From positions 1 through 46,708 of the forward strand of contig JABGRQ010000156.1 of the NCBI GenBank assembly GCA_018648225.1: DNA of 46,708 bases. Direction: 5' to 3'. The position numbers and the translations under genes are program-made. This DNA comes from Chloroflexota bacterium. GTDB lineage: Bacteria; Chloroflexota; Anaerolineae; Anaerolineales; UBA11858. Under the pieces are notes generated by a model that had not been told where the DNA came from, made no database searches, and saw nothing but the letters and a program-made list of their open reading frames with translations. Each line of letters starts with the position of its first letter. Within the stretch, counting starts at the first letter, position 1. This document shows, piece by piece, positions 34,848 through 44,876 of this stretch.

Positions 34848-36266
34848 ATGCCCGATCGGTTACAGCGATTTTCAAGAGAAGATATAGAAAAAATTCATGC
34901 GTCTTCAATGCGTATTCTGGGCGAGATAGGGGTGGTTTTTCAAGCGCCCGAAGCTTTGCAGGTTTTCAAGCAACATGGCTTTAAAGTAAACGGACAGACC
35001 GTATTTTTTAACCAGCATCAACTCACAAAAGCCCTGGAAACGGTGCCGCAACAGTTTGAAATCACGGCGCGCAATCCGGAGAAAAGCGTTCTTGTGGGCA
35101 GCGGCGATCCGGTGTTTGCGCCGGGTTATGGCGCACCCTTCATCACGGATGCCAATGGCACTCAACGCCAGGGCAAGCTGGATGACTATATCAATTTTTG
35201 TAAGCTTGTGCATACATCTGAGCATATCGATATGCTGGGTTACGAGATGATTGATCCCAGCGATGTGCCCTCTGAACATGCATACCTGTATATGATGCAG
35301 GCCAATCTGACCTATTCTGATAAACCCTTCATGGGGTCTGTGGTACCCGTGAGCGCGGCGCTGGATGCCATTGAGATGGCAAGTTTCTTGTGGGGCGGAA
35401 AGGAATTCATTCAAGACAAGTATGTCATCCTGCCGACAATCAACCCTATCTCGCCGCTGGTATGGGATGAGAATATGTCTGGAGCGATTGTGGCCTATGC
35501 AGAAAATAACCAGCCAATTATGTTTGAAAACCTGATGATGTCTGGCTCCACCGGCCCGATCACCCTGGCGGGCACGATTGTGTTGCAGAACGCCGAGATT
35601 CTTTCGGGGCTGGTGCTTACGCAATTGATTACCCCAGGGCTGCCCGTCATTTTTGGCAATATTCCCGGCATCACTGACATGCGCAGCGGAAATCTCTCCA
35701 TCGGCGCGCCAGAGACTTCGATCTTTGTTTCGGCAAACGCACAGATGGCTCAATTCTACGGAGTCCCTGGGCGCAGCGGCGGCAATCTCACCGATGCCCA
35801 CATTCCCGATATGCAGGCCGGGATCGAATCGGCGCTGTGTATGTTAACCGCCATGCGCTCTGGCACGACTTTCCTGCTGCATTCTTGCGGAATTCTGGGA
35901 GCTTATCTCTCGATGAGCTATGAGAAATTCATCCTTGATGAGGAGATCATCGCCATGGTCAAGCGCATACTACGCCCGGTGATAATCTCCGATACGACGA
36001 TTGATTTCGATACCATCAACGAAGTCGGCGCTGGTGGCGAATTCCTTAGCCATCCCACAACTTTTGAACATTTTCGAGATGAGCATTTTGACACCACTTT
36101 GTTCAATCGTCTGGGGTATAACGAGTGGGTACAACAAGGCAAAAAAGATGCCATCACGCGGGCCGGAGAAATTTATAAAGCGCGCTTGGAGAGCTACGAA
36201 AAACCTGAACTTGACCCAGAGATTGAGAAGAGAATTAGCAACTATATTCAGGAAAAAGTATGTTGA
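34848..36266 (+). CDS. Trimethylamine methyltransferase (MttB) family protein, non-pyrrolysine type
   Basis: Cobalamin-linked methyltransferase family protein of 472 residues. The MttB-like segment GRSGGNLTDAHIPDMQAGIESAL and the flanking GNIPGITDMRSGNLSIGAPE are clear. In methanogen MttB a TAG-encoded pyrrolysine sits in the active site; here the frame has no internal TAG, as in the MtgB-like homologues that demethylate glycine betaine or related quaternary amines. GGAG precedes the start. No corrinoid protein or partner methyltransferase lies nearby. The stop overlaps an amidotransferase gene by 7 bases. Confidence 0.87.
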   Translation: MPDRLQRFSREDIEKIHASSMRILGEIGVVFQAPEALQVFKQHGFKVNGQTVFFNQHQLTKALETVPQQFEITARNPEKSVLVGSGDPVFAPGYGAPFITDANGTQRQGKLDDYINFCKLVHTSEHIDMLGYEMIDPSDVPSEHAYLYMMQANLTYSDKPFMGSVVPVSAALDAIEMASFLWGGKEFIQDKYVILPTINPISPLVWDENMSGAIVAYAENNQPIMFENLMMSGSTGPITLAGTIVLQNAEILSGLVLTQLITPGLPVIFGNIPGITDMRSGNLSIGAPETSIFVSANAQMAQFYGVPGRSGGNLTDAHIPDMQAGIESALCMLTAMRSGTTFLLHSCGILGAYLSMSYEKFILDEEIIAMVKRILRPVIISDTTIDFDTINEVGAGGEFLSHPTTFEHFRDEHFDTTLFNRLGYNEWVQQGKKDAITRAGEIYKARLESYEKPELDPEIEKRISNYIQEKVC

Positions 36267-36967
36267 AAATTGGAATTTTAGATACCTTCCCACCTAACGA
36301 AATCACCATCAATTGGAATCACACCCCCGTTGATGCATATATCCGCTTTCTGGAACAGGTTAGCCCGTCGTTTTCGTATACCGGGTATGCTGTTGCCCAG
36401 GGTGAGTTTCCTGCTACGCTTGATGCGTGTGATGCTTATCTGATCACAGGCAGCCCGCGCGGCGTTTATGATTCCGACCCGTGGATTGCCCAATTAATTA
36501 ATTTTATTCAAGCGAGTTATCAGGCAGGCAAGAAACTGGTCGGGATTTGTTTTGGGCATCAAATTTTAGCGCATGCTCTAGGCGGGTATGCGGCCAAATC
36601 CGTAAAAGGCTGGGGGTTGGGTTTGAAAACGTTTAATGTCAGTGTCCAAAAACCCTGGATGGAGCCTGTGCCTGATTCGTGTTCCCTGTATTTCGTACAT
36701 CAAGATCAGGTGACACAATTGCCGCCCGAAGCCGAATTACTCGGCGGCAATGATTTTTGCCCGAATCTCTTTTTCAGCATAGACGATCAAGTTTTTGGCA
36801 TTCAAGGACATCCCGAATTCACGCCTGACCTGATGCGCGCGATTGTAAAGACGCGTGAAAAATTTGTGGGGGCAGAACCCTATGCTGAAGCGCTCGATTC
36901 GCTCGACAGCGGCACACCTGATAATCGTCTTTTTGCACAGTGGATTACAAAATTTTTAACTTCATAA
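36260..36967 (+). CDS. Class I glutamine amidotransferase-like protein
   Basis: A 235-residue stand-alone GATase1 domain. The nucleophile elbow GICFGHQILAHALGG gives the catalytic cysteine, and GIQGHPEF the histidine. It resembles GMP-synthase-like or gamma-glutamyl amine hydrolase proteins. The 7-base overlap with the MttB-family gene implies a joint pathway; I infer processing of a gamma-glutamylated or methylated amine, without direct proof. Confidence 0.85.
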   Translation: MLKIGILDTFPPNEITINWNHTPVDAYIRFLEQVSPSFSYTGYAVAQGEFPATLDACDAYLITGSPRGVYDSDPWIAQLINFIQASYQAGKKLVGICFGHQILAHALGGYAAKSVKGWGLGLKTFNVSVQKPWMEPVPDSCSLYFVHQDQVTQLPPEAELLGGNDFCPNLFFSIDDQVFGIQGHPEFTPDLMRAIVKTREKFVGAEPYAEALDSLDSGTPDNRLFAQWITKFLTS

Positions 36968-42407: not shown

Positions 42408-42437
42408 GCGATCAGGGATTATCTAATCCCTGATCGC
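42408..42437 (+). terminator. Hairpin after the fumarase gene
   Basis: GCGATCAGGGATTA and TAATCCCTGATCGC pair perfectly over 14 bp with a 2-base centre. No U-tract follows, so it may be a repeat or a rho-assisted stop. Confidence 0.5.
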
Positions 42438-42488
42438 TAATCGGGGGAATGATTTCACAGCCGCGGCTTTTCCCGATACAATAACCCT

Positions 42489-44876
42489 ATGGATAAAACC
42501 CAACGCCGATTATTTGTGCTGGCAGCCCTGTTTGTGGGATTCTACGCCCTGGCCTTGACACTCTCCCCGGCGGCGCGCGCCCGCGCCTGGGATGTAGATT
42601 ACCGTATCGGGCATTGGCTGGGCTATGCGATCTGGTTGGTGGGTTTTGCTCTGGCAATGCGCGAGACCCCCCGACGCCTGCCCAAAAGTGATCCTCTGTT
42701 GTTGCCCCTTATCGCCCTGCTCAGCGGCTGGGGCCTGCTGACCATCTGGCGGCTGACCTTTACCTACGGCCTGCGTCAAACTATCTGGCTGGCGGTGGCT
42801 CTCGGCGCGTTAATCGCGGGGTTACGGTTGAAGAATCTGCTCGATGTGTTGCAACACTACAAATATATCTGGCTGACCAGTGGCCTGATCCTCACTGCCC
42901 TGACCCTGTTTTTCGGCACCAACCCCCTGGGCTACGGCCCGCGCCTGTGGCTGGGATGTTGTGGGGTGTACCTACAACCATCGGAACCGCTGAAGTTGTT
43001 GCTGATCGTTTATCTCGCCGCGTATTTGGCAGATAATCGGTTGAAGGTTGGCAAGTTGAAAGTTGAAAGTTCGCCCCCAAACCTTCAACCTTCAACCTTC
43101 AACATATTAACCCCCACCCTCATTATGACCGGCCTGGCATTGTTGTTGCTCATCGTCCAGCGTGATCTCGGTACAGCCTCACTCTTCATCTTCATCTACT
43201 CGGTGATGATCTTCCTGGCAACCGGCTGGCGCTGGATTCCTGTGCTGAGTACTCTGGGGCTGGGGTTTGCCGGAGTAGCGGGCTACCTGCTCTTCGATGT
43301 GGTGCGCCTGCGCGTGGATGCCTGGATCAACCCCTGGCTGGACCCCAGCGGGCGTTCCTACCAGATTGTGCAATCGCTGATCGCGGTTGCCAACGGCGGA
43401 CTCTTTGGGCGCGGCCCCGGAATGGGCAACCCAAGTGTTGTCCCCGTAGCGCACTCCGACTTTGTCTTCGCGGCGATAGCGGAAGAAACCGGCCTGCTGG
43501 GGACATTGGGCCTGTTTGTACTGCTGGGGCTGATTGTACAGCGCGGTTTGCGCATCGCCCGCACCGCCAGCGATCCCTTCCGGCATTATCTGGCTGCCGG
43601 GCTGACAGCTTATATCGCCGCCCAGGGCATTCTGATTATTGGCGGCAATCTGCGCCTGCTGCCCCTCACTGGCGTAACGCTGCCCTTTGTCTCCTACGGC
43701 GGCTCATCACTGCTGACTTCGTTTATTGCGTTGCTAATACTTTTACATATTAGTGTGCCGGTTGAAGGTTACAGAATGAAAGTTGAAAGCTCGCCTTCAA
43801 CTTTCAACCTTCAACTTTCAACCCTTTTATTTAGCGCCATCGCCGCCGCCGCCCTCGTCAATGGTTGGTGGGGCTTTGTACGCGGGCCTGATCTGCTCAC
43901 TCGCACCGACAACCCGCGTCGCGCGATTGCCGATCTAACGGTGCCGCGCGGCGCGCTGCTCGATCGCAATAATACCCCCCTGGTCGAAACCGATGGCCAA
44001 GCCGGAGGCTACGCGCGCCGCGTCCACACTCCTGAGCTGGGCTCTCTGCTGGGATACAGCCATCCGGTTTATGGGCAGGCCGGTCTCGAAGCCACACTCG
44101 ACCCTTATTTGCGCGGCCAAACGGGAAATGATCCCCTCACAATCTGGTGGCATCACCTCCTCTACGGCGCGCCACCCCCGGGCCTCGATATCCGCCTGAC
44201 CCTCGATCTGAATCTGCAAAATACAGCCGATGAATTGCTTGGCGATCATTCCGGCGCGCTCATTCTGCTGGATGCCCAAAACGGCGATATTTTAGCGCTG
44301 GCTTCACATCCTGGATATGATCCAAATCAGTTAGATGAGCTGTGGGATGCCCTGATCGAAGATGAACGCGCCCCGCTGCTGAACCGTGCTACCCAGGGAA
44401 GCTACCCAACCGGGAACCTGGGGTTGGTTCTGTTCCCGGAAGGCTTGCCTGCCGCCTGGCTGGAGTATGTTCCCCTGCGCCTGCCCGGTGATGATACAGC
44501 CCTGACCGCAGAATCTGCCAGCCCGATGAGCATCGCCTTGTTAGCCGCCGCGCTGAGCAATGATGGCCTGCAACCGGTGCCCAAGATCGCCCAGGCGTAT
44601 CAACATCCTGAAAATGGCTGGAGCCTGCTCCCGGCGTTGGGCACGGCGCGCCATTACCCGACTCTGGCCGATGCAGTCAGCTTTGCCGCGGAGGGCGAAC
44701 AAACCTGGCACATCTCGCTGGCCCCCGCGGGTGAAGAATTAATCTGGTATCTAGGGGGCACACTGCCCGCCGCGGAGGGCAAGGCGCTGGCCGTTGTGGT
44801 AGTGTTAGAAGAACGCAATTTGGCCCTGGCCGAGGCAATTAGCACAGCGATGCTGCACGCCGCACAAACTCCTTGA
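42489..44876 (+). CDS. SEDS (FtsW/RodA) protein fused to a catalytically dead class B PBP domain
   Basis: Residues 1-415 form a SEDS peptidoglycan polymerase: VQRDLGTASLFI, GGLFGRGPGMGNPSVVPVAHSDFVFA and LPLTGVTLPFVSYGGSSLL. After a repeat-encoded linker and one membrane helix (about 447-465) comes a class B penicillin-binding module: PRGALLDRNNTPL, GYSHPVYGQAGLEATLD, LTLDLNLQNTADELL, GALILLDAQNGDILALASHPGYDPN. The catalytic stretch normally read as YPPGSTFK is YPTGNLGL, so the serine and lysine are gone, and SxN and KTG motifs are not visible. The 795-residue product would pair a polymerase with a structural or regulatory partner in one chain. Confidence 0.88.
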   Translation: MDKTQRRLFVLAALFVGFYALALTLSPAARARAWDVDYRIGHWLGYAIWLVGFALAMRETPRRLPKSDPLLLPLIALLSGWGLLTIWRLTFTYGLRQTIWLAVALGALIAGLRLKNLLDVLQHYKYIWLTSGLILTALTLFFGTNPLGYGPRLWLGCCGVYLQPSEPLKLLLIVYLAAYLADNRLKVGKLKVESSPPNLQPSTFNILTPTLIMTGLALLLLIVQRDLGTASLFIFIYSVMIFLATGWRWIPVLSTLGLGFAGVAGYLLFDVVRLRVDAWINPWLDPSGRSYQIVQSLIAVANGGLFGRGPGMGNPSVVPVAHSDFVFAAIAEETGLLGTLGLFVLLGLIVQRGLRIARTASDPFRHYLAAGLTAYIAAQGILIIGGNLRLLPLTGVTLPFVSYGGSSLLTSFIALLILLHISVPVEGYRMKVESSPSTFNLQLSTLLFSAIAAAALVNGWWGFVRGPDLLTRTDNPRRAIADLTVPRGALLDRNNTPLVETDGQAGGYARRVHTPELGSLLGYSHPVYGQAGLEATLDPYLRGQTGNDPLTIWWHHLLYGAPPPGLDIRLTLDLNLQNTADELLGDHSGALILLDAQNGDILALASHPGYDPNQLDELWDALIEDERAPLLNRATQGSYPTGNLGLVLFPEGLPAAWLEYVPLRLPGDDTALTAESASPMSIALLAAALSNDGLQPVPKIAQAYQHPENGWSLLPALGTARHYPTLADAVSFAAEGEQTWHISLAPAGEELIWYLGGTLPAAEGKALAVVVVLEERNLALAEAISTAMLHAAQTP
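43039..43103. repeat. GGTTGAAGGTT inverted repeat inside the SEDS gene (first)
   Basis: GGTTGAAGGTTGGCAAGTTG and AAGTTGAAAG units, a short centre, then CCTTCAACCTTCAACC complements. It encodes residues about 184-205, a cytoplasmic loop between membrane helices. Confidence 0.8.
43760..43822. repeat. GGTTGAAGGTT inverted repeat inside the SEDS gene (second)
   Basis: GGTTGAAGGTTACAG and AAAGTTGAAAGC followed by CTTCAACTTTCAACC complements. It encodes residues about 424-445, the junction between the SEDS and PBP parts. Confidence 0.8.

Follow-up and report, generated by a model that had tools for sequence, protein, structure and literature searches.

The window analyzed here is the whole stretch of 46,708 nucleotides (contig JABGRQ010000156.1 of a Chloroflexota bacterium), and near its end it carries one gene whose product joins a SEDS polymerase to a class B penicillin-binding protein (PBP) part in a single chain. 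The gene, its domains and two upstream elements are listed in Table 1. Its neighbours are a fumarase gene upstream and a ferredoxin gene on the opposite strand. Elsewhere on the contig lies an MttB-family trimethylamine methyltransferase gene (34848-36263), and after it comes one for a protein like class I glutamine amidotransferases (36260-36967).

Table 1. Positions of the fusion gene, its domains and sites, and the elements upstream of it (TM, transmembrane; TP, transpeptidase; positions are those of the window)
Feature	Position	Strand	Basis and remarks
SEDS polymerase + TM anchor + pedestal + pseudo-transpeptidase reading frame	42489..44876	+	795 aa, ATG start, intact; homologues found
SEDS polymerase domain, residues 1-423	42489..43757	+	PF01098 and model on FtsW/RodA
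D324 codon, SEDS catalytic Asp (VPVAHSDF)	43458..43460	+	Aligned to E. coli RodA D262
Single TM helix of PBP part, residues 436-464	43794..43880	+	AlphaFold helix
Hinge behind TM helix, residues 472-488	43902..43952	+	R472, N475, R477, R487, G488 near-invariant
Pedestal (dimerization-like), PbpA type, residues 475-560	43911..44168	+	Weak PF21922 PBP_dimer_2 match 487-551; fold match to M. tuberculosis PbpA
Pseudo-transpeptidase domain, residues 565-795	44181..44873	+	Core sheet kept, helical SxN subdomain deleted
Lost SxxK site, N643-L-G-L646	44415..44426	+	Alignment with homologues
Lost KTG site, aligned I742-S743	44712..44717	+	Alignment with homologues
Promoter-like TTCACA-17-TACAAT directly 5′ of ATG	42454..42482	+	Consensus match only; such matches no more numerous than in shuffles
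13-bp inverted repeat between upstream fumarase gene and fusion	42408..42437	.	Terminator-like on - strand

Pfam searching gave PF01098 at residues 91-423 (E 1e-71, 242 bits against a cut-off of 26.4), and PF00905 at residues 589-641 only, which are model positions 1-42 of 299. The SEDS part scores below the NCBIfam equivalog cut-offs (ftsW 245.7 vs 337.5 bits, rodA 206.6 vs 336.7 bits) and would by these not be classed as a canonical FtsW or RodA.

The AlphaFold model of the 795-aa protein (32-sequence alignment) has a mean pLDDT of 88 and a pTM of 0.83. Its SEDS half matches FtsW and RodA structures at Z 31-36 overall (36.0 for FtsW 8bh1, 32.8 for RodA 6bas); the match to their core begins at about residue 62-67 and is preceded by two extra N-terminal helices. 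Residues 480-794 match M. tuberculosis PbpA (3upn) with Z 32.7 and rmsd 3.0 over 308 aligned residues, and model residues 436-795 have the architecture of a class B PBP, namely an N-terminal TM anchor, a pedestal and a TP fold. A chance resemblance to PBPs is ruled out by this model and its fold match. As modelled, the protein is a SEDS polymerase followed by a TM helix, a short PbpA-type pedestal and a TP fold. An earlier reading made from the sequence only had called the PBP recognizable over its whole length, which holds for the structure and fails for the sequence, where the TP domain is shortened and the SxN helical subdomain, kept by most homologues, is absent from this short form. The model of the long form of Leptolinea (pLDDT 90) gave Z of about 40-41 on PbpA over 370 residues of its PBP part.

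Loss of the active site and its spread among relatives

The sequence-only reading described a SEDS polymerase fused to a PBP that has lost its active site, with YPTGNLGL at the place of SxxK and with SxN and KTG missing, and the alignment with 64 active homologues bore out all of this. YPTGNLGL covers residues 639-646, and N643 and L646 occupy the SxxK positions of Ser and Lys; nothing in the fusion aligns with SxN, and I742 and S743 fall at KTG. All three motifs are present in 64/64 active rows. The polymerase residue D324 is kept, being invariant in 61/61 relatives that cover the site.

The loss is not peculiar to one gene. Searches at class and phylum level and in named genomes, followed by reading of the loci, gave 174 SEDS-PBP pairs. 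On manual checking, 109 of these were dead (82 fused, 27 split as two genes), 64 were active and one, L194, was ambiguous and is excluded from both counts. Among the dead rows the SxxK Ser occurs in 5/109 and its Lys in 1/109, the two together in none; the KTG Lys occurs in 0/109, and its G is retained in 38. The earlier reading had asked whether an alternative Ser/Lys pair could be in place or whether a sequencing error had removed SxxK. A substitute pair was sought by conservation among the dead homologues and none was seen; no Lys is conserved, and the sole highly conserved Ser is S606 (S-x-P before the motif), which is equally conserved in active enzymes. A sequencing error or frameshift is ruled out because separate assemblies agree on the loss, which recurs in 109 homologues; that of Leptolinea sp. 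HRD-7 (AP024710.1) is taken from a complete genome record. As judged from its motifs, the PBP part is without the active site of a class B PBP (SxxK, SxN, KTG), and it is predicted to perform neither covalent penicillin binding nor transpeptidation because the nucleophile is missing.

Other positions of the TP fold are held in the dead proteins. W711 is near-fixed there (92/96), with V and I being the commonest residues in active enzymes, and W753 and E774 are near-invariant in dead proteins also. The long dead forms have two invariant Cys (72/72 and 75/75), one of them at the middle position of SxN, whose flanking S and N are lost.

Across the order, where 101 relatives were searched, the pair occurs as short fusions of about 800 aa, as long fusions of about 880-930 aa or as two adjacent genes. 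From the wider set of pairs, those of Leptolinea and of Anaerolineaceae MAGs (L112-L114) may be named as dead examples. In other classes of Chloroflexota, in Actinomycetota and in Clostridia the homologous pair is active and mostly split. Three actinomycetotal loci (L119, L120 and L130, two of them from Coriobacteriia MAGs) are fused and have SxxK and KTGT intact; they form one clade on the SEDS tree and thus represent an independent fusion of an active pair. The covalent joining of a pseudo-PBP is a fact of this gene, and fusion is neither necessary nor sufficient for the dead state; with 27 dead pairs split and 3 active pairs fused, it is ruled out as the cause of the loss.

In the ambiguous L194 (G106:C189), the stretch from SxxK to SxN is replaced by a low-complexity segment rich in E, L and G and the KTG is kept; L244 (G173), of the same genus, is active. 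L194 may have lost its site recently, as a third case, or its assembly may be faulty.

Ancestry, selection and known relatives of the pair

The SEDS tree was built only from the pairs retrieved with the fusion query, and FtsW and RodA paralogues were left out. The family is placed on it with the actinobacterial and Chloroflexota RodA-PbpA pairs, and 108/109 dead rows form one clade within the class Anaerolineae with a local support of 97. In a careful SEDS tree the support of the dead clade is 84/85, and 99/93 when the active L244 of the same class is taken with it as sister. The remaining dead row, L269, is a fusion from outside Anaerolineae by genome grouping and is placed among active rows; it may be a second loss. 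A constraint holding all dead rows together was not rejected (p-AU 0.06), and in the tree of the PBP part with the motif columns masked all dead rows fall on one side, a placement to which long-branch effects possibly contribute. According to these trees the loss of the active site is ancient and class-wide, going back to an ancestor of most Anaerolineae, a large class whose members are mostly uncultured. At least 8 changes of the fusion state are required on the large SEDS tree, and fusion has therefore been gained or lost independently of the loss of the active site.

For the pair closest to the fusion (L011-L012) the dN/dS values are 0.081 for SEDS, 0.110 from the TM helix to the TP core and 0.121 for the C-part; other pairs are mostly at 0.1-0.5, and the value is below 1 in all parts, which rules out a pseudogene. 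Dead and active pairs were also compared at 40-50% SEDS identity; in this comparison, whose pairs are phylogenetically non-independent, the identities of dead vs active are 37 vs 31% for TM helix and hinge, 34 vs 31% for the pedestal (a modest contrast), 44 vs 46% for TP-N and 25 vs 41% for TP-C. These sequence comparisons indicate that the dead PBPs are under purifying selection with the drift confined to the catalytic half. Conservation of TM helix, hinge and pedestal together with a loose C half would be expected of an activator or scaffold, with the part facing SEDS in use and the catalytic pocket idle.

Among the closest known systems is the actinobacterial RodA-PbpA pair of M. tuberculosis type (PbpA PDB 3un7/3lo7/3upn), which shares the SEDS lineage and the short-pedestal fold of PbpA type. 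It differs in that PbpA is an active transpeptidase which binds penicillins, whereas the PBP of Anaerolineae has no active site and is often in one chain with SEDS. The gene order adds a further likeness, as FhaA/FHA genes lie upstream in both: the dead split locus L117 has the order FhaA-FHA-PNP-SEDS-PBP and Nocardia L155 has FhaA-FHA-PP2C-SEDS-PBP-kinase-PASTA kinase, and this shared arrangement links the family with RodA-PbpA loci of Actinomycetota. At the fusion gene itself FhaA/FHA genes are not adjacent, and the FhaA_N match of the genome is on another contig (C96). A nucleoside phosphorylase gene (PNP_UDP_1) lies directly upstream of the SEDS-PBP gene or genes in several lineages of Anaerolineae (L112, L113, L117 and L064).

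The RodA-PBP2 and FtsW-FtsI complexes (8tj3, 6pl5, 8bh1) resemble the fusion in having a SEDS core with a class B PBP (bPBP) built from a TM helix, a pedestal and a TP fold and in the conserved catalytic Asp, but the PBP of these complexes is a protein of its own and an active enzyme. SEDS and PBP in a single natural reading frame are mentioned, with the Rhodococcus RHA1 genome cited, in one paper (PMC10449877). Natural fusions share the single chain, and those at L119, L120 and L130 differ in retaining SxxK and KTGT. Engineered dead bPBPs, namely B. subtilis PBP2B S309A and C. difficile SpoVD S311A, are alike in that a structural role is separable from catalysis and that others crosslink; these are laboratory mutants, whereas the dead state in Anaerolineae is natural and class-wide.

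Proposed role of the pseudo-transpeptidase

The genome which carries the fusion has its other wall enzymes in place. FtsW and FtsI are encoded on one contig with mur genes, RodA is present and PBP2 adjoins MreB, so that the fusion is a third SEDS gene separate from those of FtsW and RodA. There are also a MecA_N-type PBP, two active class A PBPs and four YkuD proteins (L,D-transpeptidase candidates). The search for a separate active PBP, which the sequence-only reading had advised, thus succeeded, as did that for the same fusion in relatives, and crosslinking enzymes are available in trans. The idea of a polymerase working without its transpeptidase is accordingly retained for its own partner and dropped for transpeptidases in general, because FtsI, PBP2 and the MecA_N-type PBP are intact elsewhere in the genome. 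Co-occurrence of the MecA_N PBP is uninformative as evidence of a trans donor, because 98/101 genomes carry one whether or not the fusion is present.

The same genome also has a class A PBP paralogue (C87:5745-8585; L006/L310) in which both active sites are degenerate: SxxK has become SLLT, SxN has become NDY and KTG has become KMG, and the GT51 catalytic Glu (ED..FY) is replaced, the sequence being RDPDFW. Its relatives occur in 46/61 genomes of the order; the SxxK Lys and SxN are gone in 24/24 of those read, and the GT51 Glu in nearly all.

We consider the fusion to be probably an accessory third SEDS polymerase of RodA-PbpA type, in which the pseudoenzyme PBP would serve as allosteric activator or scaffold, the role proposed in the sequence-only reading, and crosslinking would take place in trans. 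The class B PBP partner would have turned into a pseudoenzyme in the ancestor of most Anaerolineae and would have been fused to the polymerase in several lineages. The SEDS half, from its sequence, would polymerize lipid II; the TM helix, hinge and pedestal may have kept their contact with the SEDS core and either turn it on or stabilize its active shape, and the TP fold would persist as a non-catalytic structural or docking part. The glycan would be crosslinked by FtsI, PBP2, the MecA_N-type PBP, class A PBPs or L,D-transpeptidases. In vitro, the TM helix of PBP2 is enough by itself to stimulate E. coli RodA significantly (PMC10449877), and catalytically inactive PBP2B of B. subtilis (PMC5656894) and SpoVD (PMC12713402) still support division with other enzymes giving the crosslinks. 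In one case the dead bPBP is rescued by B. subtilis PBP3, a relative of S. aureus PBP2A; the parallel between this type and the MecA_N PBP found here is suggestive only.

Against the activator model it may be said that the rate of change is highest in the C half of the PBP, as could equally be the case in a passenger under slow decay. In addition, none of the 10 genomes sampled from the sister genus g4 yielded the gene, so that its function, whatever it may be, is dispensable in that genus. Ranked highest among the rivals, and still unlikely, is a TP fold repurposed so that its sheet or groove recognizes stem peptides, nascent glycan or a partner such as an active PBP, and kept for this instead of pedestal activation. 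The near-equal conservation of TP-N in dead and active enzymes, the near-fixed W711, W753 and E774 and the Cys pair of the long forms speak for it; however, the C-part which would line the groove is strongly variable, and in the short form, on which selection still acts, the helical half of the groove is missing altogether. Rather improbable, and placed next, is that only the TM helix and pedestal matter and the TP fold is an inert remnant under slow trimming. The short forms without the helical subdomain, the C-part having dropped most in identity and the effect of the PBP2 TM helix on RodA would agree with such a remnant, but the fold is complete enough for a confident model, the conserved W711, W753 and E774 sit within it, and dN/dS of the C-part is well below 1 after an ancient, class-wide loss.

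The two lowest-ranked explanations concern what the fusion makes or catalyzes. The SEDS half could deliberately produce an uncrosslinked or non-standard glycan, for example sheath strands or a substrate of L,D-transpeptidases, a transpeptidase partner being then unwanted. The four YkuD candidates and the place of the fusion as a third SEDS beside FtsW and RodA fit this, yet unrelated control genomes also commonly carry YkuD proteins, and we give this explanation little credence. That the PBP part has remained an enzyme by using other residues has hardly any probability, since conservation points to no replacement Ser or Lys, the KTG Lys is missing from 109/109 dead rows and SxN is deleted in short forms; the SxxK Ser of five dead rows and the 38 retained KTG glycines are the points in its favour. 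The activator or scaffold role remains the preferred explanation.

SEDS-PBP fusions and engineered dead bPBPs are already known. A natural, class-wide pseudo-bPBP paired with SEDS was not found reported in the literature searched, which was a limited search and not proof of absence. Whether SEDS polymerases need their bPBP for catalysis or for activation only is a question hitherto debated on the basis of structures and of point mutants made in the laboratory. The family presented here is a natural experiment in which the catalytic site is lost, the polymerase Asp is kept and the PBP body is under selection, and a dead PBP that is natural and sometimes in a single chain makes a non-catalytic role directly testable. 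It also gives a warning for annotation, as Chloroflexota genes labelled penicillin-binding transpeptidase may be non-enzymes. We lean towards the view that in most of a bacterial class a SEDS-bPBP synthase has become a polymerase-only machine, in which the transpeptidase would be a dedicated non-catalytic allosteric subunit, activation would be split from crosslinking and no beta-lactam target of its own would be left, giving a wall polymerase that should be beta-lactam-blind at its own partner.
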